Made by a program: the position numbers and the translations under genes
Part shown: one piece after another, positions 2,258 through 64,000 of the stretch
How positions within the stretch are numbered: position 1 is the stretch's first letter
How the letters are laid out: every line of letters starts with the position of its first letter
NCBI GenBank assembly: GCA_037178625.1
Contig: CM074129.1
Coordinates: 4,587,963-4,651,962 of the forward strand
Length of the DNA stretch: 64,000 nt
DNA from: Skeletonema tropicum
Taxonomy: Eukaryota; Bacillariophyta; Thalassiosirophyceae; Thalassiosirales; Thalassiosiraceae
Reading direction: 5' to 3'
The notes under the pieces: model-generated
Databases searched by the model: none
What the model was told of the DNA's origin: nothing
Seen by the model: the letters and a program-made list of their open reading frames with translations, nothing else

Positions 2258-5240
2258 GGGGATTAGATCAACGCCTTGCCTGACTTACTGCTGCTTGGCA
2301 TCATGGAAGGAGCTTCCGACTTCTCACTTTTAGATCCAGAACTGTGTGCAGCGGCAATGCCAAAGCCTTCGACCATAGGATCATTTCCAAGAAGGTCGGA
2401 AAGATTGTCAGCACGTAGATGTGCCTTACCTGACTTACTGCTGCTTGGCATCATGGAAGGAGCTTCCGACTTCTCACTTTTAGATCCAGCAATATGTGCA
2501 GCGGCAATGTCAAAGCCTTCGACCATAGGATCATTTCCAAGAAGGTCGGAAAGGTTGTCAGCACGTAGATATGCCTTACCTGACTTACTGCTGCTTGGCA
2601 TCATGGAAGGAGCTTCCGACTTCTCACTTTTAGATCCAGCACTATGTGCAGCGGCAATGTCAAAGCCGTCGACCATAAGATCATTTCCAAGAAGGTCGGA
2701 AAGGTTGTCAGCACGTAGATATGCCTTACCTGACTTACTGCTGCTTGGCATCATGGAAGGGGCTTCCGACTTCTCACTTTTAGATCCAGAACTGTGTGCA
2801 GCGGCAATGTCAAAGCCGTCGACCATAGAATCAGTGTCGAGAAGGTCAGAGAGGGCAGCAGAACGTGCACGTGACTTGCCTGATTTACCAGTGGGCATCG
2901 CTGAAGGACTGATACTTGGAGTAGGAGAAGGCTTACTGCTCGGCGAAGGTGAAGGCTTACTGCTCGGCATCGAAGAAGGCGAAGGTGAGGGCATACGACT
3001 TGGTGCCATTGACGGTGCTTCAGTCGCCTTTCCACTCTTAGATCCACCGCCACGGGCAGCAGCAAGGGCTGAGCTGTCGGGTATGTCAGCATCGTGGAGC
3101 TCAGAAAGATTAGAAACACGTTGTCTCGACTTGGCTGATTTAGTAGATGGCATCGCAGAAGGACTCGAAGATGGAGACATGGAGGGTGAAGGTGAGGGCA
3201 TACCACTTGGCTGAGATGAAGGTGCTGCAGTCGCCTTTCCACTCTTAGATCCACTTGCAGCGATGGCTGAGATTTCAGGCATGTCAGCAGCACCTAGGAG
3301 GTCAGAAAGGGCATCGGATCGTAGATTTGCCTTGCCTGATTTACCAGTGGGCGCCGCCGAAGGCATGCCACTTGGCATCGGGCATAGCACTTGGCTGAGA
3401 CGAAGGTGCTGCAGTCGCCTTTCCACTCTTAGATCCACTTGCAGCGATGGCTGAGCTTTCGGGCATGTCAATGTCAGCTGCATCTAGGAGGTCAGAGAGG
3501 GCATCGGATCGTAGATTTGCCTTGCCTGATTTACCAGTTGGCGCTGCCGAAGGCATAGCACTTGGCTGAGACGAAGGTGCTGCAGTAGCCTTTCCACTCT
3601 TAGATCCACTTGCAGCGATGGCTGAGCTTTCGGGCATGTCAATGTCAGCTGCATCTAGGAGGTCAGAGAGAGCATCAGAACGTGAACGTGTACTCGCCTT
3701 GCCTGATTTACTAGATGGCATCATGGAAGGAGAAGGTGAAGGCATAGCACTTGGCTGAGACGAAGGTGCTGCAGTCGCCTTTCCACTCTTAGATCCACTT
3801 GCAGCGATGGCTGAGCTTTCAGGCATGTCAGCAGCATCTAGGAGGTCAGAAAGGGCATCGGGGCGTAGATTTGCCTTGCCTGATTTACCAGTTGGCGCTG
3901 CCGAAGGCATAGCACTTGGCTGAGACGAAGGTGCTACAGTAGCCTTGCCACTCTTCGAACCTGAATCGGCAGCGTTGATGGGTGCAGCGCAAATGATAAT
4001 AGCGAGGATAGCGGCGGCGGTAGCGAACTTCATGATGAAAGGTTTTGATGTCGAATTTTGTGAGAGGTGTTCATGCACAAGCAATGCGATGCGCAACTAC
4101 CTTTCGGCTTCAATGAGAAATACCGAGAACGGTACTCAAAATTCACTTATCAAAATTGTCAAGATTATCAAGATGAAATTACGTCGGTGAACATGCATGT
4201 CATAAACCCAATATAAACGAAAGCAGAAATACATCCGGATGCCCGGGTTCAATTGCGAAAAAATGACGGGCTTCCCGGTTTTCATTTTACTGTATCCATT
4301 TGACCTCTTGCATGTAGGAGCTGGTATAAATTGAATCTAATCCACGATCTTTGTACGTTTAGATTGATTTGCCTCCTCTTCGTTTTTCCGTTTAGCCAAA
4401 AATGATTTTCCGTTCAGCTTCCAATATTGTGAAGAGAATGATAGGAGAATGAGGATCGAGATAGTGCTAACACACGTTACCCAGGTACGCGGATGTACCT
4501 CATCGTGGAGTGGGCCTAATTCCCAGCAATTCGTGGTAAATGCTTCTAACTTCAGCTAAATTAACCATTATTTTCTCAAGTTTGTAATTGTCTTCGCGAA
4601 AGATAATGAGAAGGGATGTGAATGTGAGAATCCTTATCGCGCTGCAAGATGATTTAGATTTATCCAAAATGCAAAATGAAGGCCACGAAAAGAAGCGAGG
4701 CACCAACCCAACCTCGCTCTCTTGTATGCGTACGTGGGTTGTGATCTACAGAACTCGCTGATATCGTTGCATTTGTCGCTGTTAAATATACAATGTACAT
4801 GATTTTGTCAATCATATGTATGTCAGAAGTCACTGCCGTGACCAGAAGCAGCCTCTTACAGTTACAGCTCACCGATACGGAGACCAGACAAGCTCTTCAT
4901 TAGGTTTGGCACATTATGTTCTAACGACACTTGTCGTCTTTACTAACGAGAAAGGATTACATTGTTGAACGACAAGCCGAGCAGAGTAGTGAAGAGCTGT
5001 GGTTCTGGTAGATCTTTTCATTATGTATACATCGTGTTATCACAACCACAACAATAAATTGATTGAGAGAGACAATCCTACTCCGCACGTTCATCATGAT
5101 TAGTTTGATCGTTTGGTGAGGCGGAAGTTATGGCCGCCAATGTCGACCTTTTAATCTTGCGTTGTCATGACACAACACAGTCTCTCTAACCTATGCAGAA
5201 GGTCATCAAGTGTGAATATGAATTGATTAAGACAGCTTGG
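2258..5240 (-). repeat. Segmental duplication, copy A (partner 52271-55545)
   Basis: The coding repeats, the 3' flank beginning GATTAGATCAACGCCTT, and more than 1 kb of 5' flank recur near 52271-55545 in the same orientation. Shared 5' blocks include the segment after 4215 (AACGAAAGCAGAAATACATC), the block near 4310 (TGTAGGAGCTGGTAT) and the block near 4930-4985 (GAGAAAGGATTACATTG). The 1.1 kb between 4034 and 5192 has no supported gene and probably holds the promoter of the repeat-protein gene. Confidence 0.8.
2263..4033 (-). pseudogene. Secreted Lys-Ser-Gly/Pro-Ser repeat protein, frameshifted copy
   Basis: The ATG at 4033 opens a signal peptide (MKFATAAAILAIIICAAP) followed by about ten tandem units of roughly 50-70 residues. 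Each unit starts GSKSGKA or GSKSEKS, continues with a Pro-Ser-Gln-Met spacer, a second GKSGKA, and ends with a leucine/aspartate segment such as RSDALSDLLDAAD. A 19-bp insertion at about 3367-3385, a near-duplicate of the adjacent 'cat agcacttgg' context, shifts the frame by one; without it the protein would be about 584 residues. The intact paralogue lies at 52283-54439. K-x-x-K clusters in Ser-rich context occur in diatom silaffins and related silica-matrix proteins, so secretion into the silica or wall compartment is plausible, but this is compositional inference. Whether the frameshift is real or a sequence error is unresolved. Confidence 0.75.
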
Positions 5241-26948: not shown

Positions 26949-28129
26949 ATGTTATCTGCGTACCTCAGAAGAAACAAACAATCTAACAGCAGTAATGGGA
27001 AAGAGAAGGACCTAATAGCTCACTATGAGTTGAGAAGTTACCCCATTCCTAGCTTGAATCTAAACGATTATCCTCCAAATACGGTCCTCATTCGAACCAT
27101 TGCCGCTTCGATTTGCGGAAGCGATCTCTTTGGACTTGGAGGATGTGCTTCCTGCCCGGAATGGCGACGCCCGACTGCATTGTTTGATGTTATGCCCGAG
27201 ATATGTGGAGGATCTAGACATGAAGCGATCGGTATCATCGCGTGGATATTCGTTCCTCCTATATCAACAGTCTTGTGAACTATCCATCGGCCAAAAGGTA
27301 CTTGCCATGTCAACAGCGTACATGTACAAAGTTGATAGCGTAAGAGAAGTAATCGAAAAGGAGACAGGACAAGATATATCGAGTGTCTATCCAGAGCAAG
27401 TGCGGTGCATTCGCTGAATACTTCATCACCCATGTGAGCACATGTGTCAAGCTTCCAGACAGTATTCCATCTTTGGATTTTGACCCACGTTGGTATGTTT
27501 TGGCCCAGCCGCTTGGAACCATCCTTCATGGTTGTCAGAAGCTTGGATCTGTCGTTAATACAACTGTGGCCGTGATTGGACAAGGTCAAAACGGTCTCAT
27601 CATGACGCAAATGCTAGCAAAAATGGGGGCTCGTCGAATAATTGCATTGGATCTATTGGATGAGAGGTTGTCGTACTCATTGAAGAACAATGCTACGCAT
27701 ACAATCAAAGTAACATCATCGATGGACATTGACAAGATCAAACAACAAGTAAGAGCTATCAATGGTGGGAAGATATGCGATGTCACTATTGAAATGGCCG
27801 GTCATCAGGCAAACACTATCCAGCTCTGTTCCAAGCTCACAAGAGATGGAGGAAAAGTCTTGCTTTTCGGTCTACCACCTGCCAAGTCTGAAAGCCAAAT
27901 GAGCATCGGTTATGAGGATCTGGCACGAAATCTCACGTATATTTGTTCGCACTCTCCTGAGATGAAGTCGTTTGAGACAGCAGTAGAGTTGATTGAGCGA
28001 GGTGTTATTGATCCGTCTATCATCTTTTCACATACTATCCCATTCTCTCGTTTCGTGGAGGCTTATCAAATGGCAAATAGATATGAGGATGGTGTTGTCA
28101 AGATACTTTTGTCGATGGAGGAGCATTAG
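26949..28129 (+). pseudogene. Zinc-type medium-chain dehydrogenase, two frameshifts
   Basis: ATG at 26949. The first segment has ICGSDLFGLGG and GGSRHEAIG, matching the catalytic-zinc Cys and His-Glu of medium-chain dehydrogenases (alcohol/sorbitol/threonine dehydrogenase-like). The second frame has GQKVLAMSTAYM. The third has CGAFAEYF, the nucleotide-binding glycine motif VAVIGQGQNGL (G-x-G-x-x-G) followed by IIALDL, and DGGKVLLFGLP near the C-terminus. Two +1 shifts separate the segments (about 27230-27290 and 27395-27405), each equal to one extra base. Repaired length is about 393 residues, slightly longer than the family norm of about 350. The reaction would be NAD(P)-dependent oxidation of an alcohol or polyol; substrate is unknown. 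The missing structural-zinc cysteine cluster suggests a polyol-dehydrogenase-like branch. Confidence 0.75.
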
Positions 28130-28334: not shown

Positions 28335-31300
28335 CTACCCTTCAAATTCTTCTTCTTCGGACGAAGATTCTGAGCCCAACCCAAGCGAGGAGTCATCATC
28401 ATCGTCATCCACACCAGCGGCCGCTTTCTTTGCATCATTGTCATCATCGTCCAGATCAACTGGATTGGCATCTTCATCAACCACATGAACAAATGATAGA
28501 GTGTCAGCCTTGTCTTCACACACTCCAAGGAGAGGCGCATCTGCAAACCCATCATCACGCAACGAATCAGCACCGTTGTAATCACTCCACTTATTCCCAA
28601 GCTTCGTCTTTGTGTCACATTTACAACCCTCTTTCAACGTGAAGCAGTCACGAAGTTCTTCTTTGGTGAAAGATGCGTTGGTTCTACTCCCCTTCTTGCT
28701 CCCTCCATCATTTGCAATCTTGGCCAGATTACCCTTTTGAGTTTGCCTCTGGTAAATAATCTCCTCAACAGTTCCAGTAGTGAACAATCGGTAAATGAAG
28801 CACGGCTTTGTTTGACCCTGACGATAGATACGGGCCATGCTTTGCTGATCCGTCGCTGGGTTCCAATCTGCATCCACCATAATGAGACGATTAGCCCCTA
28901 TCAAGTTCAGCCCACACCCACCAGCCTTGGAGCTGAGCATGAAGGCAAAGCTATGTTCGATTGATCTCTTGTTGAATGAATCAACGGTTGGACCTCGAGA
29001 TGCATTATCTGTAGATCCATCGAGGCGAACGAATGGTAAGTTCTTCTTGCGCAAGATGGAATCTTCTATGACGGTGAGCGCCGACGTAAAGTTGGAAATG
29101 ATGACAACCTTATCGGTGGGATTGTTTTGCCGAATGGAGTCAAGCAAGCTACTGAGGACGATCATCTTTCCGGAGAGTTCCAATGATGAATCACTAGCTT
29201 CACCCAACAGTGAGGGATGTGTACACAACTTCCGCGCTTCAGTGAGAAGCATCAATGGATTGTTACTTGCTTCAATACCACCAATCGATCCAATCGATTT
29301 GGAGGCACGATTTGAAATGTTCTTGTACAGTTGACATTGACGTTCCGTAGGACGACAAAACAATAAAATTTCCTGCCTCGGTGGCAGAATTGATTTCAAG
29401 ACATCCTTCTGTGTACGACGCAGCACGAATGTAGATGTGATACTATCCAACAGCTTGGACTGTTGTCGGCCCTTCTCCTTTTGACCCGAAGTTGCATTCT
29501 TTTGATTCGCACGAGACATTGGACGTTCATAGAGACGACGGAATGTATTCAAATCCCCCAGAATACCTGGCTACCGCAAAAGAAGCCAGGGTAAAAAATT
29601 CCGATAGATTGTTTTGAATGACCGTTCCAGAAATGAGGATCCTCGCCTCTGCGCTAATGGAATTCAATGCCGACAAAGTTTGTGATCCTGCTGTATTCTT
29701 GAGACGATGTCCTTCATCTACGACCAAGAGACCAATCTTGGCAGCATTACAAATTACCTTCTTATGAATTCGGAACAGTTCAGTACGACAAAATGAGCAC
29801 CTCACTCTGATTTGGTTTGATTGGGACAAACGAACGCAATTTACACAGACCCTCCTCATTGCCATTTCTAACTATAACTCGTTTGGGTTGTGATGCCTTG
29901 CCGATCCACTTATCAAATTCCTTTGTCCAATTGGACACTAGTGAAGAGGGACATACAACAATGAAGCGACGATCGCGTTTACGACGATGGAGTGCAAAGA
30001 TTGTAGCAATAGTCATCAATGTCTTCCCGAGACCCATCTCATCAGCCAAGACTGCTCCCCTGGGCATGGGATTGTCACCACCCTCCTTCTTCTTGTTATT
30101 CGCCATTGCAATTGCACCGCCACCAACACCACTACCATTTGTTTGGAGCGAAGAAACACCACAATCATCATATTCCACATCACTATCATCCATTCCACCG
30201 TCATCCTCCAAATCAAACGAACCCATACTACTCAGCGACGACGAACAAGAAGAAGCACTTTGCTCTCTTGCTCGAACAATTGCATGATTCAACCCAACAC
30301 TAACACCGGTCACACAATTCCATAAAAATGCAATCCCCTCACGTTGATGTGGACGCAATACCTCACGGATAGAGTTGGGAATGTTGATTTTGTCACCTAG
30401 TGCTCCTGGAAAGAAGTTGTTGTTGTTGTTGTTGGATATAGCAGCAGCAGTGGATGATGTTGATTTTTTGGTATTGCTCAATGCTGCTGTAGATGTTGAT
30501 TTGAGATGATTGCCACTCATCATATTTATATTCATATTGCGTTTCAGTAGCCCTCCACCACCACTACTACTGCTGATACCACCGGCAATACTACCAAGTG
30601 GACGTTTCCGTATCAATCCTGCACCAAGAGTAGACGATGATGCTCCTTTCGCCCTGACAAGTAGTGAGGATGGAATAGATGATGTCTTTTTCAACGTCGT
30701 GATATTTGATGTCAATGTTACATTGTCACCATCGTCGCCGTCATGATCATCATCATGTTTGGAAGATGCAGCATTGACATTGTCCAAGTACCATTCCCCA
30801 TTTTTATCCTTCTTCATTACATTTCCAGATGCTACCGCTTCTGCTGCTGATGATGACGAAGAAGCTACTGACTTCAAAGAGGCAGCATTATTACTATTAT
30901 TTGACACAGCAGCAGCATGACCAATGGCAGTGGCAGTACTAACAGGTGCTTTGATGAGCCCATGATCAGCTGCACGTGCGCCTAATAATTTGTTGGACGG
31001 TTGTTTCATTCCTACGTCATGATTACTTAGCTTGACAGAATGAAGTGGTGCTCTAGCTCTACTGCTAGCGACAGAAGAAGGACCACCAGTTGAAACTGCA
31101 CCCCTTGACCTTGATATCAACCCTCCTCGCTGTGGTGGTTTCGTCATGAATAATTTTCGAGTGCCAATCTTGGCTGCAATACTACTGTTACTGTGATTGT
31201 TACTGTGCGCCGCTCCCGAAATCGGTGTCTTGGTACTTCTAGCCCCATCATGTCCACAACCATCCTCCTCCAACAACTTGCTAATGATCTGACACTCCCA

Positions 31301-31799
31301 TTGACCACTCAAGCACGATCTCCTCATCATCTTGAATGTCCGCTGCCCTCTTGGCCAGTTCTTGATTGACACCGCTGTAAATTATTACTGCAGCAGCGCT
31401 CTTGCTTGTCTTTTTTTGGAAGTGCGCTTCGTTGGTTCGATTTCGATTTGCTGAAATTCTTTTGTTTGCCGCGTCGCTTGTAATAGCTCTTGCCAGCTGC
31501 GATATCTTCGTCATCGCTATCGTCAGTCATTCATATCGTCATCATGATCATCAGCGGCGTTGGCGACATCATTGTCCAGCAAGTGCACCGAGCTCAACGG
31601 CGGAGGGGCAATGCTCAATATTCCATCTTGGCGGGAAGTGCCTCGATGTTTGTGCACTTTGTTCGTTCGTTTGTAGTAGAGAACTGTGAAGCGGTACAGG
31701 TTGAGGAGTTGTTGACGTCATGATTGGCTGTGTTGAGTTTGATGATGGGCCGGTGCTGGATGGTGGATGTATTGTGTAGTGAGAGCGTTTCAGTTTCAT
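28335..31799 (-). pseudogene. Rad54-like SNF2 helicase with six one-base frameshifts
   Basis: Start ATG 31799 (MKLKRSHYTIHPP). A disordered Ser/Asn-rich N-terminus of about 450 residues includes WECQIISKLLEEDG. It is followed by LRPHQREGIAFLW (Q-motif region), ADEMGLGKT (Walker A), PSSLVSNWTKEFDKW, SYELFR, VVDEGHRLKN (DEGH box), LISGTVIQNN (motif III), RTQKDVLKSILPPRQE, then the C-terminal lobe with AGGCGLNLIGANRLI, DWNPATDQQSMARIYRQGQ (motif VI) and an acidic tail. Motif order and the ISYE-x-FR and RIYRQGQ signatures place it near Rad54, a DNA translocase of homologous recombination. The frame shifts six times in the same direction, near 31640, 31534, 31395, 31290, 29797 and 29570, each equal to one extra base. 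So many uniform shifts with every motif conserved fits sequence error better than old decay. Confidence 0.8.
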
Positions 31800-34530: not shown

Positions 34531-36391
34531 TCTGATAGCTGTGGCTGGGTGTATTTTTGATCCGGCGCAGCCGGATCAGCGCTGCACGAAGAGAGGAAAG
34601 AAAGGAAGGGGAAAGGAGAGGAGAAAGGGTAGGAGGATGTAGATGTATGCTCTGTTTTGATTTCACTAGCTTTAAAGCTAGTTATACCTGCTTTTGCTCG
34701 ATCCTAATTGCTGTCATTCTTTGTTGGGCCCCATGCTGTGCCTTGCGATGCTTTACATCATTGCCTCATGCTCATTAGAGGGTATACTACCACATCAATT
34801 CCATCTGTACCATACACGTTGCACGCGACGCTATGACCCACACTGTACATCCAAGCCAAATACCTCAAAGACATTCTAAATCTATTGCTCGTTTGTGTTG
34901 TTGCTATCAATTAAGTTGTGGTGCTTCGTTGTTGTGCTCGGCTGATGCTGGACCTTTTTAGATGCTGTCAAAGAAATGCTTTATTGCGGCTGCTGATCCG
35001 TCCTGGCTGGGCATGCACGGGATGTGGTCAGTGTGTCAGATGTCTTCTTCTAAGCCTCCTCGAGATTATGATTGATTGCCATGCCAGTCGAACAATTGTC
35101 ATGCCAGTCGATCTATGTGGAACAGTGTTTCCTTGTCGTTTCAAATCGTTTTCTGAATCTAGATTATCTAGTGTAGGCATCTCTCCCTCTCTTCTTCATA
35201 CGCTACGCTAGTGATTTTGATTGCCTCTGGCATATCTGACATTAGAGTTGCTTTCCATCTTAACCTTCTATCTACTACCACTTGACTGCTAGTTGATTTG
35301 TATGTTTCTACTCTCTGTTGATTTGTATGTTTGGTTACAGTGTCACTGCTACTGGTGTTGTCATTATTGTTGTTATTATCATTCACTGTCGTCTTAGGCG
35401 TCGCGGCTGGTGATAATTAAGTGCATCGCTGCAGGAAATTACGGTGGCTGCTAGAGTACGTGTCCTCTCTCTGTAGTTGCTGCATCTACGTGCATGAACT
35501 GCAACTATTTGCATTTTTGTCTATTTTTGTATTCCGTGCAGTGTTGTCGAATAGCCAATGATCAAATTCACCCAAATCGAGCAGAATCTGCAAGGTAACC
35601 TACGGCGATGACATAATGCGACTTGCATTTCATTCGGTGGTGTTCATTTCTATCTACTTATACTGACTGCTGCGCTGCTTTGTGTGTTGGCATCGGAGCG
35701 AGTGCTGAAAAAACGAGCATGAACTTTCAGAGCAATTTCCTCGCACTTCTGATTAGCTACGCTTTTCCGAAGATGATATCGAGAGTGATTAGATTAAATG
35801 GATTGTCGGCTGCTGCATAAGTAAGTTCTTGAGTCGATATTGCTTCCACTGGAGTTGTATGGTTATTGCGAGGTTGGTCGACATCATGGTCCTTTGTCCT
35901 TCGCAAAAGCAAAGATCCAGTCTAAAATTTGGCGCGCCTCGAAAAGATCCATTCTAGTGTGGTCGGGCCGGTATTTTTACGGGTAAAATATTCTTGCCCG
36001 TTGTCTCCATCAAATTTGTGTGTGACGAAGTTAGTGTCTCCATCAAATTTGATGGAGACACCCGCTTCGGTGTGAAATCAGTTATTAGGGAGTAAGCTAG
36101 ACAGAGGCGGGTGAAAACTGAAAACGCTGTCTCCATCAAATTTTTTGGCCCCCGCTGTTTACCATCTGCCCGGATCGCGGAGTTTGTGTGGGGCTTTATA
36201 ATGAAATGGGTATCTGAATATCTGTTGCATCGCCAGCAGATATCTTCTCGCTCCATAGAGCTATCTTGGCTTGAGCTGGTTCAGCACACTGGTATATCTT
36301 ATAAGGCAATTGGTCTCGAGCTGTTCTAGCGACTGATCAAAATCAGTAAATTATCGAGTGTTCGCCCCCAGACCCAGCGCTTGGGCTGATG
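34531..36391. other. No gene; hairpin cluster at 36000-36145
   Basis: TGTCTCCATCAAATTTG recurs four times between 36003 and 36145, one pair forming a perfect GTCTCCATCAAATTTGATGG palindrome at about 36038-36061. The third copy of the dispersed repeat lies at 36170-36245. No supported coding frame. Confidence 0.5.
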
Positions 36392-36482
36392 AATTATTTG
36401 GCAGCAAAGGCAAAGGCAAAGGCAAGCAAAGGCAGAGGCGAAGGCAAAGGCAAAGGCAAAGGCAAAGGCAAAGGAAAAGAAA
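36392..36482 (+). repeat. GGCAAA hexanucleotide tandem array
   Basis: About fifteen imperfect copies of GGCAAA with occasional GGCAGA/GGCGAA variants. In one frame it encodes a short Ala-Lys-Gly repeat, but there is no supporting gene context. Confidence 0.8.
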
Positions 36483-36717
36483 GTCTGCCTGCGCCAAAGT
36501 TCGAATCCAAAGTGGAAGTGAAGTTTGTTGACATCGTTGAAATGTTTGGCAAGCTTCTTTAAGCTAGCGCTATCGTTACTTTGCAGAGTTCGGTCAAATA
36601 TATTCGGTATATATGGCTGTACATCACTTTATCTTTATTACAATATTACAATATACCAATACCTACTAAATAAACATAAACAACGTTTGTGCTTGTGCCC
36701 TCTACTTCTACTTCTGT

Positions 36718-39700
36718 CTATGGCTCAATGGTGAGGCAACGACGAATCCAAAACAATCTTTCATCGCAGCAATGTGCCTTGCTATCATAGAGCTCGTCCC
36801 ACGACTCTGCATAGCCACCACAAGGCGACGGCCCATCACAATCTTGAACGCACGTGTTCGCACTAAATTTGACATACCACTTTGCTGTACTGTAGTCTAC
36901 AGCTACAGCTGTAGATGAAGGTGAAGACACTGGAGATGAAGGTGAAGACACTGACGCTGAAGCTGATGAGCCCGGACAGTCCTTCCTCCAGAACAACAAC
37001 TCATCACAACAAATTTCTATACTACTATAGAGTTCTTCCCACGATTCTGCAATGCCACCACAAGGCGACTCTCCAGTGCAATCTTGGACACACTCATAGT
37101 TGTCCCAATCGACGTACCACTTCTCTGAACCTACATCTACATTTCCACCACCACTTGCACTGCCTGAAGATGAAGAGCTAATGCAATCATTCTTGTAGGA
37201 CAACCTTACATCGCAGCACTGCTGCTTGCTACTGTAGAGCTCTACCCAAGTATTTGCAATTCCACCACAAGGTGAATTTCCAACACAATCTTGGATGCAT
37301 GTTTCGGTATCCCAATCGACGTACCATTTATCTGTACCAGCTTCAGTTGATTCGCCTAGGCACTCACGAATATTCCAGTAGTAGTGTCTCTCACAGCATT
37401 CTTCTCTTGTATTGAATAAGTAACTTTCGGTCTCGACCAGCATGTAGTAGGGCTCCTGGCCTATACAGAAACAGAAGAGATATTGAAGGTGAAGATAAAT
37501 CAGCTATGTTGCAGGTATCAACATATGACAGATACACACATCTAGAGAGCATTTGCATTTGCTAACTTACCATCATTTTTGCATTCCCTATTTGATCCAT
37601 TCCAATCAGGGTAAAATAACCGCGTAATGCAATCATCATGGTCCAGCGGATATCTTTTCATACAAGCATCAAATTGATATCCATCAAAGAACTTTTTACA
37701 GCAAGCTTCCAACGTGCTAGATAGCCAAGTTATAGGATTCAGCGCCATGTAATCTGGCTGATCACCATCGTTCCTGTTGAGAGAGCCACAAGCACAAGCA
37801 CAAGTAGTAAATGAAATGAGAATTATTCATCTGCGCATTGAATAAATATGCAGACTGAGCAGAGAATAGACTCACCTACACCCATCATTGCCTTGTGTCC
37901 AATGAGGATAGAACAAATATACACCATGTGGCATCGAAGGTGCTTCAGTTGGTGATGCAGAGGGGGCGCAAGAAGGAGCAGAAGAAGGTACTGTGGATGG
38001 TTCCAAGGAGGGCTCTGACGAAGGATCTGTAGAGTGCTCAGATGATGGCTTCGTGGAAGGCTGTAGTGATTCGGAGGGCTCCATACTAGGCTCTGATGAT
38101 GGCTCGGATGAGGGAAGCATACTAGGCTCTGACGATGGCTCGGATGAGGGAAGCATACTAGGCTCTGACGATGGCTTCAGCGATGGATCTGGTGTAGGTG
38201 TAGGTGCAGCTCCAGATGAGGATGGAGGTGTTACTGTTCCAGGCCCAGGTGGTACAGGTACAGCTAATATCAAAGTCGGCTTCAACGACGGCTCGCTTGA
38301 GGGCTGCGCACTTTTTGAGGGAGACAAACTCGGCTCAGCTGAAGGTTGCGAGGATGGACCTGACGAAGGCATTGCAGAAGGTATAGATGAAGGCTCCGCC
38401 TCCGCACTTTCAGAGGGAGCTACACTTATACTTGGCACAGTCGAAGGCTCAACAGACGGCGCAGTTCTCTCCGTACAAGTGTCACCAATCCATTCGCAGT
38501 TACTGCAGTAAATGCATTGATTTACTTTCAGTTCAGTGCATGGCGAACAATTCCATAATTCCTGGCAACCGGTGTCTTTTCCTAATCCTGCAATCCATTC
38601 GCAATTAATGCATTGACCGCATTGCGGATTTACCAGTGGAGGATTCATGCATGATGGACATAATGTTTTGGAAATGCACTCTCCGTTCGACCAGACGCAG
38701 TCAGTACATAAATCGCATTGATTTTTGCTCCTTCCATCGCAGGCTTGATAACATGTCGCCAATTCAACGCATTCTCCTCCTGGACTCCAGTCGCAGTTAT
38801 TGCACGCCCTGCATTGTTGTTGGTCCCATTTGGATTCAGTATCATTGCTATTGCATGATGAACATGACTCTGATCCAATGCATTTTGCATTACTCCATTC
38901 GCAGTATGATCCGCATGAATAAATGCAATCTTCAAAGCTCAAATCATAACACGATGTAGTTGATGTACAAGAAGTAGAAGCAGAAGTAGTACTTTGCAGT
39001 CCTCGTTGTATATGTGTCATTGCTGTCGAAGTACTCTCCCTAGAGCCAGAGCATTGATGCGCAGAAGAGTGAACATTATTTTTGTTCACATAGGGAGTAC
39101 CAGCAACATCTATCCAAGCCGTGGCCCCACCTCGACCTTCTTCCTCGCCTAGACCGTAAGAATGCTGTTGTAGAATGAAAAATGGATGCGTGTGAGAAAA
39201 CGTTTTGTTTGATGCTAATGCTAATGAATCAGTCAATCCACCATATCCCTACATGTACTTACCAGGACCATTCTCTGCCCGACATCTATGGCATAGAATC
39301 GTACACGACAACTGACAGAAGAAGAGATGGTATCATAGAATTCACCTTCTTCGTGCGGGCCACACCCTCCCGGCTCAACGATCAACATGCGGTACAAATA
39401 TTGATGGTAGGGATGAGTATCAGTACCACTAATTGTCCACTCATAGATTTCACCATATCGGATAGTTTCAAGAGGCACGTCTTCGTCCCAGCTTTGTGCA
39501 CCTGACATGCCAATCGCTAACGTACCATCAGGAGTAGCGGATTCCAAACCGATAAGGGAAGCTGGTTTTCGTGGGGCATCACCAAGGTCTAATAGTTCAT
39601 GTAAATCGGTGTTGGAGTCGAATATACCTGCCACTATTGTTGCGACGTCTCCCCTCCCCCAATGAATTGTAGTAGCACCGGCGGAGTCACAGTTTATGGC

Positions 39701-40674
39701 ATAGTCTGCACGGGACGCACCAGTCATATCAAAGCTAGATCCAGAGTAAGTCGTAAGAGGTGCATTATGCCAAATACCATCACTGGCGACTTTATACACT
39801 GTGCAGCTGCCACCATGAAACGACAGGGCGGCTGTTCTTGCGAAAGGCTCCACGGTAGAAACTCGCAGCCTATTCCATTTCCCAACTTGCACCTGAAAGG
39901 TCTCGTTTCGATTGGCGTTTCCAAGAACAGAAGTTGTTCCCATATCCGAAACTAGAAGCAACAACTCATTATGAGGATGAGCCCATGAGTTCAATTGAGA
40001 GTAATCATCGTCAATAATCAACATTCCGAAAGCAGCCCCTAACTGCGTCTGGTCGACGGTAAGAGCATGATAGTGGGGATGATACCAATTAGTACCGCCA
40101 GGATGATCCCACGGAATGTCCCACGTATAATCGATGCAATCACCTCCCGAAACGAATCTGGTGATATCATCGCCATCTTCGCTGCCGGCAATGTGAAGTC
40201 CATGAGTGTGAATGTTTGTCTTGATGGTCGAGTCCTCCACAGAGTTGCGAAGGGTGAGTTTATATCTGGTGCCTGGCGACATTCGAATGAGAGGGCCTGG
40301 TGTGCTACCGCACGGGGTGATGTCTCCTGGATTTCGATAACCTGTAAAGCATGCAGAGAAATGGTGTATTGGTATTGATAGCCGAGAATGTGATGAGAAA
40401 TGAGAATGAGTCAAAGTCAAAGACAAGCAACGTAGAATATGAATATATGAATATGACGAGCCGGGAGCTGGTCGGCGTCGGCGTGTCTTGACTTACCATA
40501 GTTTGAGCCTTCCTTGCAGAACTCGAGAGAAGCGCATTTTTCTTGACCGCAATCCGACCATATCAGCGTACTGGGGTATGCAGCGTTGACAATAACATGT
40601 TGTGCGTTTGATAATAACGTCATGGCGAAGGCGAGGATTACCGAAGTGTTGGTCGAACGAAAGTGATTCATCAT
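36718..40674 (-). CDS. Secreted multicopper-oxidase fold fused to Cys-rich and Pro-Ser-rich modules
   Basis: Five exons: 40674-40497, 40341-39263, 39164-37876, 37773-37571, 37460-36718. All introns are GT-AG, phases agree throughout and the CDS totals 3492 nt (1163 residues). Exon 1 encodes a signal peptide. Exon 2 is a multicopper-oxidase fold with HTHG (about residue 104), WYHPHYH (about 145) and [10 protein letters not shown] (about 369). The usual C-terminal HCH...H box is absent: the exon 2-3 join reads [20 protein letters not shown], so copper oxidation may be lost. Exon 3 holds five C-x2-C-x-W-x4-C modules (for example [15 protein letters not shown]), then about 150 residues of Pro-Ser-Ser repeats. 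Exons 4-5 encode two YPDW...CC modules and three KWYVDWD...CGG...CC modules. Likely location: cell surface or wall. The tail is paralogous to 58958-59627. Confidence 0.85.
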
Positions 40675-46431: not shown

Positions 46432-47860
46432 CCGTCTATACCTTAAAAAGTGTCCGTAGGACAGGACCACACTATTGCAGCCCGGACACTGTCACTCCCC
46501 CTGCAAGGATGCACGGACACATTCTAGAATCCGGACACTTTCAAGGGTTTCTTAGAGCGCAACATGTAACAATTCTACTCCATCTCTCCATCGCTATTGT
46601 CCCCATCCTCATCAATGATGCCAAATGCTGCTTCAATCGCGACAAAGTCATCTTCATTCCCATTTTCCTCGTCTAAAAGATGGTCCAGCCCCTCCTGGCC
46701 ACAATACTGCTTCACCATTTTATGTACCTCATCTTCGGTCCAAAGCACAACCTGCCCTTTATCCGAAAAGGAGAGCTCCTCTTCCGGAGTGTATCCACAT
46801 GCAGTCCATGACTTTCTAACCATTTCTTCAGGAATCTTATCCCAGGCCTGAACAACCCATGTTGCCAATTGCTGTCGTGATGGAGCTTCAGGCGTCCCTT
46901 TTTCTGTGACGGGAGCAATGAGGCTGTATGCATCGTACAAGTCACGGAAGTAACCTTTGAAGACCTTGTTGATCACCTTGTCAAGAGGCTGTCCACATGG
47001 GGTTAGTCCTCCTGGCAAGATATCCACAGAAAGACAAGGAAGTGATAGGCAAAAGTCTTTCACCTCAGCTGTAGAATATGACTTGAAGTCATCCCACAGC
47101 ACACCAATCTTGTTTTCGCATTCTCCTGTCTCTTTGTCATATCCACCAGCGGGCAAGATAATCTTCTTCAGGTAGAGCTTGGTAAGAGCATGGTTTGAGC
47201 AAGCCTTCGGCGCTACTGTAATGTACGCTTTGTCGCGAGGAGGGTAATGGTTGCCATGGCGATCAGGTTTTTTTGTTCCTTTGTTTTAATGACCTTCACC
47301 GTAAAGCCAAACGAATCCATCTTTAAGGAACTCCCGTCATCCTTGTGAGGTGCCTTTTTGGCTGGAGTTTTTTTACTGATGCTGCCGCTGCCGGTTTCAG
47401 ATGTAGTTCCGTCGCACACTTCTTCAGATCAACGGCTTCATTAAGATATTTATCATACACCATTCCTGCAGTGAGTTGGACAACCTTTTTTTCTGTCGAG
47501 AACAGCCCATCCCACTGGTCCTTTGTAATAAACTTCAGTTGCTCGACAGTCTCAACACCTATATCATCGAGGAAATCTTCGATCTCATCATTCCATGGTA
47601 GGGTGTTCGATCTAAACCAGTATTCGATGGCATCCTCCGACATGATGGTATGATGTGTGTAGTCGTATTATTCTTATTTTAACACAACATGGTGTGGTGG
47701 CCCGCCGTGCTGGGTTGTGCGTGCTGGCTTCGCACAAAGCATTTGAAAGTGTCCGAATCTGGTCGGACACTTCCTCGAAAAAGGCTGCGGACACCTACAA
47801 GTCACCTGAAAAACAGTCCGGACAACAGAAAAATCCGGACACTTTTTAAGGTATAGACGG
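46432..47860 (-). mobile_element. Pogo-type DNA transposon, internally deleted
   Basis: Inverted ends of at least 25 bp (CCGTCTATACCTTAAAAAGT...) are flanked by TA at 46430-46431 and 47861-47862. GGACAC/GTGTCC and CCGGAC motifs recur inside both ends (46450-46540 and 47748-47845) and are likely transposase-binding sites. It carries a partial transposase gene on the minus strand. Confidence 0.8.
46575..47643 (-). pseudogene. Partial pogo/CENP-B-like transposase
   Basis: ATG 47643 begins a 100-residue helical N-terminal segment (DFLDDIGVETVEQLKF) that I cannot assign. A basic linker (KKTPAKKAPHKDD) and two frame shifts lead into PDRHGNHYPPRDKAYITVAP, then VLWDDFKSYSTAEVKDF, DILPGGLTPCGQPLDKVINK and PSRQQLATWVVQAWDKIPEE, followed by SWTACGYTPEEEL and an acidic tail. 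The last blocks are the second and third acidic positions and the C-terminal region of pogo/Tigger/CENP-B-type DDE transposases. The first catalytic Asp and the HTH DNA-binding domains are missing, so the protein could not transpose the element by itself. It ends in Asp-Gly-Asp repeats at 46575. Confidence 0.75.
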
Positions 47861-52270: not shown

Positions 52271-55200
52271 CTAAATCATGGATTAGATCAACGCCTTACC
52301 TGACTTACTGCTGCTTGGCATCATGGAAGGAGCTTCCGACTTCTCACTTTTAGATCCAGCACTATGTGCAGCGGCAATGTCAAAGCCGTCGACCATAGCC
52401 ATAGGATCATTTCCAAGAAGGTCGGAAAGGTTGTCAGCACGTAGATATGCCTTACCTGACTTGCTACTGCTTGGCATCATGGAAGGGGCTTCCGACTTTT
52501 CACTTTTAGATCCAGAACTGTGTGCAGCGGCAATGTCAAAGCCGTCGACCATAGAATCAGTGTCGAGAAGGTCAGAGAGGGCAGCAGAACGTGCACGTGA
52601 CTTGCCTGATTTACCAGTGGGCATCGCTGAAGGACTGATACTTGGAGTAGGAGAAGGCTTACTGCTCGGCGAAGGTGAAGGCTTACTGCTCGGCATAGAA
52701 GAAGGCGAAGGTGAAGGCTTACTGCTCGGCATCGAAGAAGGCGAAGGTGAGGGCATACGACTTGGTGCCATTGACGGTGCTTCAGACTTTCCACTCTTAG
52801 ATCCACCGCCACGGGCAGCAGCAAGGGCTGAGCTGTCGGGTATGTCAGCATCGTGGAGCCCAGAAAGATTAGAAACACGTTGTCTCGACTTGGCTGATTT
52901 AGTAGATGGCATCGCAGAAGGACTCGAAGATGGAGACATGGAGGGTGAAGGTGAGGGCATACCACTTGGCTGAGATGAAGGTGCTGCAGTAGCCTTTCCA
53001 CTCTTAGATCCATTAGCAGCGATGGCTGAGCTTTCAGGCATGTCAATGTCAGCTGCATCTAGGAGGTCAGAGAGGGCATCGGATCGTAGATTTGCCTTGC
53101 CTGATTTACCAGTGGGCGCCGCCGAAGGCATAGCACTTGGCTGAGATGAAGGTGCTGCAGTCGCCTTTCCACTCTTAGATCCATTAGCATTAGCAGCGAT
53201 GGCTGAGCTTTCAGGCATGTCAATGTCAGCTGCATCTAGGAGGTCAGAGAGGGCATCGGATCGTAGATTTGCCTTGCCTGATTTACCAGTGGGCGCCGCC
53301 GAAGGCATAGCACTTGGCTGAGACGAAGGTGCTGCAGTCGCCTTTCCACTCTTAGATCCATTAGCATTAGCAGCGATGGCTGAGCTTTCAGGCATGTCAA
53401 TGTCAGCAGCATCTAGGAGGTCAGAGAGGGCATCGGATCGTAGATTTGCCTTGCCTGATTTACCAGTGGGCGCCGCCGAAGGCATAGCACTTGGCTGAGA
53501 TGAAGGTGCTGCAGTCGCCTTTCCACTCTTAGATCCATTAGCAGCGATGGCTGAGCTTTCAGACATGTCAATGTCAGCTGCATCTAGGAGGTCAGAGAGG
53601 GCATCGGATCGTAGATTTGCCTTGCCTGATTTACCAGTGGGCGCCGCCGAAGGCATAGCACTTGGCTGAGATGAAGGTGCTGCAGTAGCCTTTCCACTCT
53701 TAGATCCATTAGCAGCGATGGCTGAGCTTTCAGGCATGTCAATGTCAGCAGCATCTAGGAGGTCAGAGAGGGCATCGGATCGTGTACTCGCCTTGGCTGA
53801 TTTAGTCGATGGCATCGCAGAAGGAGAAGGTGATGGCATGCCGCTTGGCTGAGACGAAGGTGCTGCGGTAGCCTTTCCACTCTTAGATCCATTAGCAGCG
53901 ATGGCTGAGATTTCGGGCATGTCAGCATCATCTAGAAGGTCAGAGAGGGCATCGGAACGTGTACTCGCCTTGGCTGATTTAGTCGATGGCATCATGGATG
54001 GCTGAGACGAAGGTGCTGCGGTAGCCTTTCCACTCTTAGATCCATTAGCAGCGATGGCCGAGATTTCGGGCATGTCAGCATCATCTAGAAGGTCAGAGAG
54101 AGCATCAGAGCGTAGATTTGCCTTGCCTGATTTAGTGGATGGCATCATGGATGGCTGAGATGAAGGTGCTTCAGTAGCCTTTCCACTCTTAGATCCATTA
54201 GCAGTAGCAGCGATGGCTGAGCTTTCGGGCATGTCAGCAGCATCTAGAAGGTCAGAAAGGGCATCGGATCGTAGATTTGCCTTGCCTGATTTACCAGTGG
54301 GCGCCGCCGAAGGCATAGCACTTGGCTGAGACGATGGTGCTGCAGTAGCCTTTCCACTCTTCGAACCTGAATCGGCAGCGTTGATGGGTGCAGCGCCAAT
54401 GATAATAGCGAGGGTGGCGGCGGCGGTAGCGAACTTCATGATGAAAGGTTTTGATGTCGAATTTTGTGAGAGGTGTTCATGCACAAGCAACTGCGATGCG
54501 CAACCTATAAACGAAAGCAGAAATACATCCGGATGCCCGGGTTCAATTGCGAAAAAATGACGGGCTTCCCGGTTTTCATTTTACTGTAGCCATTCGACCT
54601 CTTGTATGTAGGAGCTGGTATGAATTGAATCTCATCCACGATCTTTGTACGTTTAGATAAATTTGCCTCCTCTTCTTTTTTCCGTTTAGTCAAAAATGAT
54701 TTGCCGTTCAGCTGCCAATATTGTGAGAGAAATGATAGGAGAATGAGATCGAGATAGTGCTAACACACGTTACCCAGGTACGCGATGTACCTTATCGTGG
54801 AGTGGCCCTAATTCCCAGCATTTCGTGGTAAATGCTTCATAACTATATCTAAATTAACCATCACTTTCTCAAGTTATGTCTTCGCGAAAGACAAAGAGAA
54901 GGGATCTAAGAATCCTAATCGCGCTACAAGATGATTTAGATTTTTCCAAAAAAATGCAAAATGAAGGCCATCCTCGAAAAGATGGAGCGATCGATGCCAC
55001 CCAACCTCGCTCTGTTGTATGCGTGGGTTGTGATCTACAGAACTCGCTGATATCGTTGTATTACAGATTGACGCTGCACACTCCAAAATAATGTCTCGCA
55101 AGATGCCTGATTTTGTGCAAGTTTATCGTATGCCGTTGCCGCAGGTAGGTAGGTGGTAGGTGGTAGTATGGTAGGTGACCAAAAGCAGCTTCTTCACCGA

Positions 55201-58957: not shown

Positions 58958-61900
58958 CTAAGCAGAAATGGAGAGGCATCTACTATTCCACCACAATTTG
59001 TTCTTGCAACACTTTCTCTTGTCACTAAAGGTTTCATCCCATCCTGCCGCGAGTCCCCCACAGGGCGACGCTCCATCGCAATCTTGGACGCATGTGTCTG
59101 CACTGTATTTGACATACCATTTTCCTGACCCAACAGCCTCAGTGCCCAAGCACTCGTTTACATCCCAGTAAAAGTGTCTCTCGCAGCAGTCTTTGAGCGA
59201 AGAGGAGAAATACCAAGCTTGATTGTTGATCATGTATGGGGGTACTTCGTCAATGTTATTTGAACAAGAAGCGGAACTTCCTGACAATTTGGGATAGTAT
59301 TCACCATGTTTCAGCTCTGGAGTGGTCCCTGTACAGGCGTAGTAATCCCATTCATAGAACTTTTGACAGCATTCTTCTCTTGTTTCGGATAAGTAATAGT
59401 CGGAGTTGACCAGCATATAGTACGGCTCCTGAGCATCAGCCAGGCAACCCTTGTTAGAGCCATTCCAGTCAGGATAAAATAAACTGTCATTACATTTGTC
59501 TTGGTACAATCCCATGCAATGCTTGTACAAGTGGCCCCCAAAGAATTTCTTGCAGCAAGCTTCCCTTGAGCTTGAGAGCCAAGTTTTAGGATCCACAACC
59601 ATAAATTCTGGTTGATCACCATCGTTCCTGTTGGAGGTGATTCATGGGATTGAGAAAGCGTAAGCAAACATACATTTTCAAAAAGAGCATTCAGAGAGTG
59701 AGAGACAACAAACTTACCTGCACGCCTGGACGCTGTTTTCCCATTCAGGATAGAATAGATTGACGCCATGAGGCTTTGAAGGAGCTTGTGATGGTGCACT
59801 TACAGGTGAGCAGGATGGAGCTGTGCTGACACTAGGCATAAATGATGGCAACGAATCAGAAGGAGCTGGTATTGATGCGCTACCTGGGGATGCATTTGAA
59901 TTCAATGGAGGTCGGGGTTGTCGGGTTCTACTGTTTTTGGAAGGAGATGATGATTTGGAAGGAGAAGCTGATTTGGATGGAGAAGCTGATTCAGAGGGAG
60001 AAGCAGACTTGGAAGGAGAGAATGATTTGGATGGAGAAGCTGACTTTGAAGGAGAAGATGACTTGGAAGGTGAAGCTGATTTGGATGGAGTTAATGATTT
60101 AGAAGGTGAAGCTGATTTGGATGGAGAAGCTGATTCAGAGGGAGAAGCCGATTTGGAGGGAGCTACACTCGAACTTCGTGATGGCGCTACTGACTTGGAA
60201 GGCTCTGATGATAACGATGGTTGGAGAGAGGGTGACTGGCTTGGCAGCGACGATAATGTAGGATTGAATGATTGCGAGGGGACCGAACTTGACTGACGAG
60301 ATGGCAGAGAAGATTTTGATGGAGCCGTGCTCGTGGAAGGGACAGAGCTTGGCTGAGATGTGCTCGAACAAGTTCCTGTTTGTGGTGACCTAGTATCACT
60401 CTCCCACACGCAATTGTCACATGCGTTGCACTCTCTCTCATCACTAGGACGATTGCAAGTTTCACAAAGTGTCGACAAGGCAATGCAGGTGGTTGTTCCT
60501 GAAGAGAAGCAGATCCCGTTGCATTCACTTCTGTTGCACTCGTCACTTCTTCTGCGACCATTGCAGTAAGATGAGCTGCAAGTGAAACTGGGAGAAGAAG
60601 AGTTGGTAGGAAAAGATGATATAGAAGGAGATGATGACTTGGATGGAGATGCCGATTCAGAGGGTGATGCTGATTCGGAGGGGGCTACACTCGAACTACG
60701 CGATGGCGCTGCTGACTTGGAAGGCTCTGATGATAACGATGGTTGGAGAGAGGGTGACTGGCTTGGCAGCGACGATAATGTAGGATTGAATGATTGCGAG
60801 GGGACCGAACTTGACTGACGAGATGGCAGAGAAGATTTTGATGGAGCCGTGCTCGTGGAAGGGACAGAGCTTGGCTGAGATGTGCTCGAACAAGTTCCTG
60901 TTTGTGGTGACCTAGTATCACTCTCCCACACGCAATTGTCACATGCGTTGCACTCTCTCTCATCACTAGGACGATTGCAAGTTTCACAAAGTGTCGACAA
61001 GGCAATGCAGGTGGTTGTTCCTGAAGAGAAGCAGATCCCGTTGCATTCACTTCTGTTGCACTCGTCACTTGTTCTGCGACCATTGCAGTAAGATGAGCTG
61101 CAAGTGAAACTGGGAGAAGAAGAGTTGGTAGGAAAAGATGATATAGAAGGAGATGATGACTTGGATGGAGATGCCGATTCAGAGGGTGATGCTGATTCGG
61201 AGGGGGCTACACTCGAACTACGCGATGGCGCTGCTGACTTGGAAGGCTCTGATGATAACGATGGTTGGAGAGAGGGTGACTGGCTTGGCAGCGACGATAA
61301 TGTAGGATTGAATGATTGCGAGGGGACCGAACTTGACTGACGAGATGGCAGAGAAGATTTTGATGGAGCCGTGCTCGTGGAAGGGACAGAGCTTGGCTGA
61401 GATGTGCTCGAACAAGTTCCTGTTTGTGGTGACCTAGTATCACTCTCCCACACGCAATTGTCACATGCGTTGCACTCTCTCTCATCACTAGGACGATTGC
61501 AAGTTTCACAAAGTGTCGACAAGGCAATGCAGGTGGTTGTTCCTGAAGAGAAGCAGATCCCGTCGCATTCACTTCTGTTGCACTCGTCACTTCTTCTGCG
61601 ACCATCATTGCAGTAAGATGAGCTGCAAGTGAAACTGGGAGAAGAAGAGTTGGTAGGAAAAGATGATATAGAAGGAGATGATGACTTGGATGGAGATGCC
61701 GATTCAGAGGGTGATGCTGATTCAGAGGGAACTAAACTCGAACTAGGCGATGGCGCTGCTGACTTCGAAGGCTCTGATGATAACGATGGTTGGAGAGAGG
61801 GTGACTGGCTTGGCATCGACGATAATGTAGGATTGAATGACTGGGAAGGAGAAGCAGAATTGGAAGGTGATACCGATTCAGAGGGTGAAGCTGACACGGA

Positions 61901-63778
61901 AGGTGAATGCCTGATTCAGAGGGTGATGCTGATTTGGAGGGAGCTACACTCGAACTAGGCGATGGCGCTGCTGACTCGGAAGGCTTCTGATGATAACGAT
62001 GGTTGGAGAGAGGGTGACTGGCTTGGCATCGACGATAATGTAGGATTGAATGACTGGGAATGGAGAAGCAGATCTGGATGGAGATGCCGATTCAGACGGA
62101 GAGGCTGATCACTGGAAGGTGAAGCCTGATTCAGAGGGTGAAGCTGATTTGGAGGGAGCTACACTCGAACTAGGCGATGGCGCTACTGACTTGGAAGGCT
62201 CTGATGATAACGATGGTTGGAGAGAGGGTGACTGGCTTGGCAATCGACTGATAATGTAGGATTGAATGACTGGGAATGGAGAAGCTGATTTGGAATGGAT
62301 GATGCCGATTCAGAGGGTAGAAGCTGACATTGGAAGGTGATGCCGATTCAGAGGGTGATGCTGATTTGGAGGGAGCTACACTCGAACTAGGCGATGGCGC
62401 TGCTGACTCGGAAGGCTCTGATGATAGCGATGGTTGGAGAGAGGGTGACTGGCTTGGCATCGACGATAATGTAGGATTGAATGACTGGGATGGAGAAGCT
62501 GATTTGGAAGGAGATGCCGATTCAGAGGGAGAAGCTGACACGGAAGGTGAAGCTGATTTGGATGGAGAAGCAGAATTGGATGGAGAAGCTGATTCAGAGG
62601 GAGATGCTGATTTTGAAGGTGAAGCCGATTCGGTGGGCGAAGTTGATTTGGATGGAGAAGATGAATTAGAAGGAGAACCTGATTTGGATGGAGAACCTGA
62701 CAAGCTTGGACTCGTGCTCGTGGAAGGGAGAGAGCTTGGCTGAGATTTGCTCGAACAAACTGATGTGTCATCCCACACGCAATCTTCACATGCGTTACAC
62801 TGACCTTGATCTAATGCACTGCATATCGTACACGAAGTACTTGGACCACCGTTGTGTACTGGTTGCGGGATGATGGGATTCGCATCAATTAGTTTCATAC
62901 TTGGAACTGAGCTCGTCGCAAGTGAAGGTTTACCAGAAATAGATGGAACCAAACTTGGATGAGATGATGGTGTTGCTGATTTACTCGGACTAGACGATGG
63001 GACCGATGACTTGGACGGAGTCAAACTCAAACTGGGCTCTGAACTAATAGTTGGCACTAGGGACTCATCTTCGGAAGAACTCAAGGAATGACTATCAATT
63101 GAGGAAGGCGAAGGTTGACTGCTTGTGGTCGGAGATGGACTATCAGTTAAGGGAGGCAAAGCTTGACTGCTTGTGGTTGGAGGAGGAGAAGGACCTGAGC
63201 CTGTGGTCGATGATAGTGTTGCTGGTTTACTCGGACTAGACGATGGGACCGATGACTTGGACGGAGTCAAACTCAAACTGGGCTCTGAACTAATAGTTGG
63301 CACTAGGGACTCATCTGCGGAAGAACTCAAGGAATGACTATCAATTGAGGAAGGCGAAGGTTGACTGCTTGTGGTCGGAGATGGACTATCAGTTAAGGGA
63401 GGCAAAGCTTGACTGCTTGTGGTTGGAGGAGCAGAAGGACCTGAGCCTTGACATTTTTCTGACTGTTACCGCGTGTGGATTCCAGGTGCAGTCACACTGT
63501 TCGCATCTTTCTTTGCCCTCTATAATAGAGCATACTGAGCAGTCGCCTAAGTCCCCCACTCCAATTCCGCCGCCACCATTTTTGCCGACCCCCATTTGAA
63601 GTGAGCGGCGGTCTCCCAAGAGAGGGAATTCAGCGTTGACGTTAACGATAGACGCGGTGGATAACAATAACATCGTGTAGGGGAGGTACATCGCGGCGAC
63701 AGGGCGAAGAGTCGTAGCCGTAGCCGTAGCAAAGAGACTAATGAGGAAGAGAAAGATAGGAACGTTGGCGTGTCTCAT
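58958..63778 (-). CDS. Large secreted Pro-Ser / Cys-rich protein with tandem repeats
   Basis: ATG 63778 opens a signal peptide (MRHANVPIFLFLISLFATAT) and a CSVCSIIEGKERCEQCDCTW module. A one-base shift in a T-run (63454-63458) leads into a very long Pro-Ser region (units such as SASPSKS, SPSESAS) interrupted by Cys modules (CNACEDCVWDDTSVC). Then come three 522-bp repeats, each with CNGRRRSDECNRSECNGICF and CETCNRPSDERECNACDNC. An intron (59628-59717, GTAAGT/CAG) precedes the last exon 59627-58958, with [52 protein letters not shown] and KWYVKYSADTCVQDC modules. The last two exons are homologous to the tail of the 36718-40674 gene and share its first intron position there. 61900-62340 is corrupted by single-base insertions. 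It is probably a wall- or mucilage-associated protein; there is no enzyme domain. Confidence 0.7.
60180..61748 (-). repeat. Three tandem 522-bp coding repeats
   Basis: Units at about 60180-60701, 60702-61223 and 61224-61748 are almost identical; the last has an extra 3 bp (ATC near 61604). The length is a multiple of three, so each adds 174 residues in frame. Confidence 0.85.
61900..62340 (-). repeat. Degenerate repeat stretch with many single-base insertions
   Basis: Compared with 62340-62545 it carries extra bases, for example GGCTTCTG for GGCTCTG, GGGAATGG for GGGATGG, AAGCCTG for AAGCTG, GGCAATCGACTG for GGCATCGACG and TTGGAATGG for TTGGATGG. I count about ten insertions and almost no deletions. 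Confidence 0.7.
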
Positions 63779-64000
63779 CTTGATCAATTCAATCGATGTC
63801 AAAGGAAGAAGTTCAGGTGCTGTTGCCGATTACTTACATATGAGCAATTTTATGTGAAACAGCAACACGCAAGCAAGTTGTGTGAGTTGTGAAGGTAGGG
63901 CTGTGTTGTCGATCTTGGAACTGGACAAGAAAAGTTTTACACTCTACCACATCATGACAAAGACACCCTCGCTCCCGCTTTGTGGTGGAGAATGTGACCA
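63779..64000. other. Upstream of the Pro-Ser protein; possible divergent gene start
   Basis: An ATG at 63954 opens a plus-strand frame (MTKTPSLPLCGGECD) that runs off the window. It is too short to judge. Confidence 0.3.

Follow-up and report, generated by a model that had tools for sequence, protein, structure and literature searches.

A multicopper-oxidase-like head with degenerate copper motifs joined to a Cys-rich and Pro-Ser-rich scaffold in Skeletonema tropicum

The gene and its product

The window analysed here is the whole 64,000-nucleotide stretch C3:4587963-4651962 of the Skeletonema tropicum assembly. On its minus strand, at 36718-40674, lies a gene whose N-terminal multicopper oxidase (MCO) part, termed the head, is joined to Cys modules, a Pro-Ser repeat and a paired-Cys tail, together termed the scaffold. 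A first-pass annotation had proposed five exons in one frame of 1163 residues plus stop; the same exons and frame were recovered (listed below, with paralogs named by contig). All four introns begin with GT and end with AG under the exon 3/4 border as listed, which can slide by one base with the product unchanged. Alternative exon joins made by shifting that border gave an identical protein or a broken frame and were rejected.

40497..40674, minus strand: exon 1; N-terminus, hydrophobic and signal-like, and first part of the head; top hydrophobic 19-mer from residue 11
40342..40496, minus strand: intron 1; GT...AG; position common to the C12 and C15 paralogs
39263..40341, minus strand: exon 2; cupredoxin domains 1 and 2 and most of 3
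40193..40216, minus strand: copper motif I, NIHTHGLH; His104 and His106 kept; HTHG at residues 104-107
40067..40087, minus strand: copper motif II, WYHPHYH; residues 145-151; His147 and His149 kept
39386..39415, minus strand: copper motif III; residues 369-378; His369 and His372 retained, Tyr374 in place of the third His
39165..39262, minus strand: intron 2; GT...AG; position shared with the C106 copy of the intact paralog
37876..39164, minus strand: exon 3; motif IV, Cys modules, Pro-Ser repeat and start of the tail
39126..39164, minus strand: copper motif IV, degenerate; from residue 419; the intact paralog reads HCHVLGHEDNGAM
38463..38951, minus strand: five Cys modules; residues 491-653, 29 Cys
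37920..38462, minus strand: Pro-Ser repeat; residues 654-834
37571..37773, minus strand: exon 4; first Cys-Cys module of the tail
36718..37460, minus strand: exon 5; four more Cys-Cys modules and stop

The product was searched against Pfam and matched Cu-oxidase_3 (5.4e-12) and, under its cut-off, Cu-oxidase_2 (0.0075). Its cupredoxin domains stand in the MCO arrangement, and a structure model of the head (exon 2 only) is consistent with an MCO fold. The proposed signal peptide agrees with the hydrophobic N-terminus predicted by hydropathy. Four of the five Cys modules carry the claimed C-x2-C-x-W exactly (540, 572, 604 and 639), and the remaining one reads C-x3-C-x-W (503-509). The Pro-Ser stretch is present but runs to 181 residues (54 Ser, 44 Pro) rather than about 150, and scored 23.2 bits against PF04886, under the 26.2 cut-off. 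Five Cys-Cys pairs follow, as described earlier, at 873, 938, 998, 1067 and 1147.

Copper ligands, paralogs and selection

The HTHG, WYHPHYH and third copper-motif strings noted in the first pass are all present in the product, and motifs I and II each retain the HxH of catalytic MCOs. Motif III, expected as HxxHxH, reads HPYHQY, with Tyr for the last His; this loss within HPYHQYL had gone unremarked. The replacement of the terminal HCH...H box was borne out: motif IV reads HSYGLGE where HCHxxxH is required. Compared with the intact paralog, Cys is changed to Ser421, His to Tyr422 and His to Glu426, the axial Met is gone and two codons are extra. Ligand roles were assigned to motif positions from MCO structures, in agreement with the MCORP literature. 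On this assignment, the losses comprise the Cys and second His of the type 1 (T1) site, two His of the type 3 (T3) site and the axial Met.

Two artefactual explanations of motif IV were rejected. The idea that a misplaced start of exon 3 conceals an intact HCH box was set aside, because that start aligns with C12 from HSY/HCH through TP...NNV. A single sequencing error was also set aside, because several separate codon changes, together with the two extra codons, separate the window and C12 copies, and because two relatives (P0034 and P0053, below) look intermediate.

Four copies of the head were found in the assembly. The paralog with intact ligands lies on C12 and has a counterpart on contig C106 (97.9% over 10 kb, exon 2 identical); it encodes HPYHQHLYHM and HCHVLGHEDNGAM. 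This intact MCO (C12/C106; protein records P0032 and P0048) is 76% identical to the window head over exon 2, and introns 1 and 2 of C12/C106 match those of the window gene in position. Its Pro-rich linker is short and is followed by a single Cys module. Unlike the window product, it has all aligned ligands (the P0048 record is without domain 1), and its records are without the Pro-Ser array or the paired-Cys tail. The C15 paralog has one open frame of 2277 codons running from upstream of the head start through the Cys modules and then a Pro-Ser repeat, here very long. Its frame ends at a window-like exon end (GCR, then GTAAGT), and paired-Cys exons of matching kind come next; nearly all of domain 3 is missing and motif II reads HPN.

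Intron 2 of the window gene sits near the junction of head and scaffold, as would be expected had two neighbouring genes been wrongly joined. In the intact paralog, the same intron connects two pieces of the MCO itself. The single open frame of C15 spans domains 1-2, the Cys modules and the Pro-Ser repeat, and a comparable join lies inside one open reading frame (ORF) of P0092, a relative from outside the four head copies whose 384 residues include domain 1, some of domain 2, one Cys module and a Pro-Ser repeat. Because head and scaffold share one frame in both C15 and P0092, the gene is read as one, as first proposed, and a false join of two genes is highly improbable.

Protein searches scored the 7996 and 7987 candidates richest in words shared with the query, the second listing 120 of 146 matches. 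The relatives considered numbered 135, with 11 ligand columns aligned in 106 and motifs I-III aligned in 124. Trees were built from 32 and from 27 of the 135 relatives, each with three paralogs, and structure alignments took in 44 of the 135 and 36 of 43 relatives. Ligands were intact over the 11 columns in 99 of the 106 aligned relatives, and motifs I-III in 117 of 124 (exceptions P0034, P0035, P0049, P0050, P0051, P0053 and P0092). The seven rows not intact over 11 columns were P0034 and P0053, P0106 and P0132, and P0036, P0054 and P0113; the last three were not counted as losses, their ORFs entering an intron or stopping short.

The ligand-poor or truncated rows, the window copy and C15 form one clade inside the intact oxidases, and P0034 and P0053 fall within it. 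Support was 100/99 (8 rows, without P0092) in the 32-relative tree, where long branches leave the bootstrap not fully settled, and 98/99 (9 rows, motif III masked) in the 27-relative tree, where P0092 groups with the window copy (100/98). C15 and P0092 were placed in the clade count for truncation: most or all of domain 3 is gone from both, with the scaffold retained. P0034 is labelled S. marinoi and P0053 S. menzelii; among rows labelled S. marinoi, P0048 is intact and P0034 ligand-poor. Motif IV reads HFHGLGHEENGAM in P0034 and, in an ambiguous alignment, HSHAHSLSQEGYGSM in P0053, states that look intermediate by sequence. P0050 is 90-91% identical to the window copy over the head and has the identical motif III change.

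A three-branch codon model was fitted to three sequences (window, C12 and C15) over 293 or 349 codons. Over 293 codons omega was 0.185 for the window, 0.163 for C12 and 0.326 for C15, and omega = 1 was rejected on the window branch (likelihood ratio test (LRT) 19.05, p 1.3e-5), on that of C12 (LRT 63.23) and weakly on that of C15 (p 0.04). Over 349 codons the values were 0.196, 0.174 and 0.392. Pairwise omega between window and C12 was 0.186 (464 codons), and 0.163 in domain 3 before motif IV (77 codons). The MCO fold is maintained by selection in the window head. From motif IV onward, over 28 codons, pairwise omega was 1.56 (LRT 0.5 against 1) with no constraint detected, so the copper loop appears unconstrained over these few codons. 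The first-pass view that the terminal copper box has been replaced accords with the motif IV states, and the window-branch omega shows the gene to be constrained all the same.

The apparently unconstrained loop, the higher omega of the C15 head (0.33-0.39) and a head-less partial copy close by would all suit a decaying pseudogene. Against decay stand the 1163 codons open across four introns, the constraint on the window branch (omega 0.185, p 1.3e-5), the motif III change shared with P0050 (90-91% over the head) and relatives of the tail exon at 81% (P0136) and 77% (P0137). A pseudogene is accordingly judged very unlikely.

Scaffold relatives and neighbouring features

With its Pro-Ser repeat followed by paired-Cys modules, the window gene has the layout of a diatom tail protein. 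An exon 5 query gave 96 matches genome-wide, its own and several per gene included, and 43 relatives among public proteins, whose labels include Skeletonema and Conticribra weissflogii; P0136 (81%) and P0137 (77%) are relatives of the tail exon. At 7 of 12 other module loci, a frame of at least 250 residues contains nine or more PS-x-x-PS repeats. A Pfam scan of frames from 6 of the 12 loci placed DUF285 and a PT repeat in one (L018); two others had PT as their sole match above cut-off, a fourth had PT below cut-off, a fifth gave no match and the sixth matched HSF, an unrelated domain. Comparison of the tail modules with Kunitz domains gave weak resemblance only.

A second scaffold-type gene lies in the window at 58961-63780 (minus strand), with a signal-like start, a Cys module, a long Pro-Ser repeat and YPDW/Cys-Cys modules; no MCO head was seen in it. 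About 48 kb from the window gene, C3:4671871-4674460 (plus strand; L015) is an inverted, head-less partial copy of window positions 36195-38497, with DNA identities of 86% and 92% in two pieces. It may be a dead fragment, since its listed frame has no Met ahead of the repeat. Another piece of the last paired-Cys module lies at C3:4659642-4659818 (95% identical). Frames 3344-4096 and 52286-54580 (minus strand), ~50 kb apart, have a common N-terminal stretch, SQNSTSKPFIMKFATAAA, and the latter matches the PT repeat model.

Elsewhere in the window, 24.6-31.8 kb has a nearby inverted repeat copy (~95.5%). A zinc-binding dehydrogenase exon was seen at 27353-28126 (plus strand), SNF2-type helicase exons at 28338-31381 (minus strand) and a transposase-like remnant matching a DDE-superfamily endonuclease at 46578-47285 (minus strand).

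A head that may bind rather than oxidize

Electron entry into a normal MCO needs the T1 Cys and T1 His. Both T1 Cys and a T1 His are lost from the window head, so no normal entry is expected, and the head is therefore taken as a binding or structural domain, a role also suggested by the selection retained on its fold. We put the probability at about 0.7 that it is a pseudo-oxidase now serving as such a domain on a surface scaffold. The short Pro-rich linker and single Cys module of the intact paralog suggest the path: an ancestral MCO of Skeletonema type would have duplicated, and one duplicate would have acquired extra Cys modules, the Pro-Ser repeat and a paired-Cys tail of the kind found at many loci in the genome. 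The T1 site and part of the trinuclear site would then have decayed, with the fold still selected as the head became a binding or structural domain. We infer this order of duplication, expansion, tail gain and ligand loss. The protein would be secreted and act at the surface in binding, with no oxidase activity in its head; the Pro-Ser stretch would be a spacer, and the disulfide-rich parts would hold it in the cell-surface matrix.

Several points weigh against this reading. Ligand changes also occur outside the clade, in P0106 and P0132. The structure model spans exon 2 only, leaving the motif IV loop outside, and the omega values come from three sequences, that of motif IV from 28 codons. 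P0092 comes from a single 1797-base contig and, being so short and alone, is possibly misassembled. Intron 2 of the C12 copy is without a canonical acceptor, which is found before HCH only in C106 (L005, L006); the mismatch may be an allelic difference or an assembly error, and the intact state of the paralog rests on the C106 copy. Finally, all four domain-1 His and the type 2 (T2) pair are retained in the window head, so that some copper chemistry may persist.

That last point leads to an alternative in which the head has kept at least one copper ion, perhaps through the T2 pair His104/His372 together with the domain-1 T3 His, and does other redox work at the surface. His104, His106, His147, His149 and His372 are retained; of the six ligand-poor relatives having motif III, all six keep its second His and five the first motif I His. 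In the partial text of PMC10315306, SKU5, without T1 and T3 ligands, modulates the apoplastic redox state, and LPR1 is a ferroxidase without a T1 site. Against it, the window copy has lost the T1 Cys, one T1 His (the second) and two of the T3 His, C15 and P0092 manage with little or none of domain 3, and MCORP, which also has the T2 pair, has very little copper and no oxidase activity according to the available part of PMC4203857. We consider copper-based activity unlikely, though the best placed of the alternatives.

Precedents for a pseudo-oxidase head of binding or structural kind are SufI, SKU5 and MCORP, here as given in partial accounts. The pattern of SKU5 and MCORP, with the T2 His pair kept and the T1 Cys lost, is that of the window head. 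Plant SKU5/SKS proteins are likewise MCO-like with T2 His present; T1 and T3 ligands are absent and they act on the cell wall. They differ in being GPI-anchored, in lineage and in having no such tail described in those accounts. In the window product, a hydropathy scan found no C-terminal hydrophobic GPI-anchor signal (past residue 40, the top 19-mer mean was 0.99, from residue 151). Insect MCORP also keeps the T2 His pair, with most other ligands gone, and is essential, with oxidase activity not found (PMC4203857, in part); it too is of a different lineage, with no such tail described there. SufI/FtsP of E. coli, a septal-ring protein, has the MCO fold without copper; it is bacterial, keeps 2/12 ligands and has no such tail in the description available.

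The architecture had been called new, a claim that calls for qualification. A fusion of MCO head and scaffold was not found described among the literature matches listed; copper-depleted MCO-fold proteins are already known, on the partial accounts above, from plants, insects and bacteria. Incomplete copper motifs in MCO paralogs of Skeletonema, Thalassiosira and other diatoms were also published in 2015 (PMC4460010, as far as its available text goes). That text names sites II and IV, whereas III and IV are lost in the window gene, and describes no fusion.

Among related long MCOs (P0001, P0002, P0012 and others), PF00801/PF18911 and PF07995 were listed, which we take to be PKD and glucose/sorbosone dehydrogenase. 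MCO fusions of other kinds therefore seem to exist.

More broadly, and as a tentative proposal at somewhat less than even odds, a duplicated Skeletonema oxidase may have become a lasting non-catalytic scaffold head, its copper loop unconstrained and domain 3 mostly or wholly dispensed with in two relatives. Like plants with SKU5 and insects with MCORP, Skeletonema would then add another eukaryotic example of an extracellular MCO turned into a module that is structural or binds the matrix, perhaps retaining a single copper site. Diatom MCOs tend to be treated as candidate ferroxidases (PMC4460010, in its available part); the window gene suggests that the MCO label may mislead on function. It points to an uncharacterised diatom tail family bearing different heads, and its close relatives form a natural progression, from the intact paralog through loss of the Cys and of the box to loss of a domain, in which to ask how an enzyme becomes part of a matrix.
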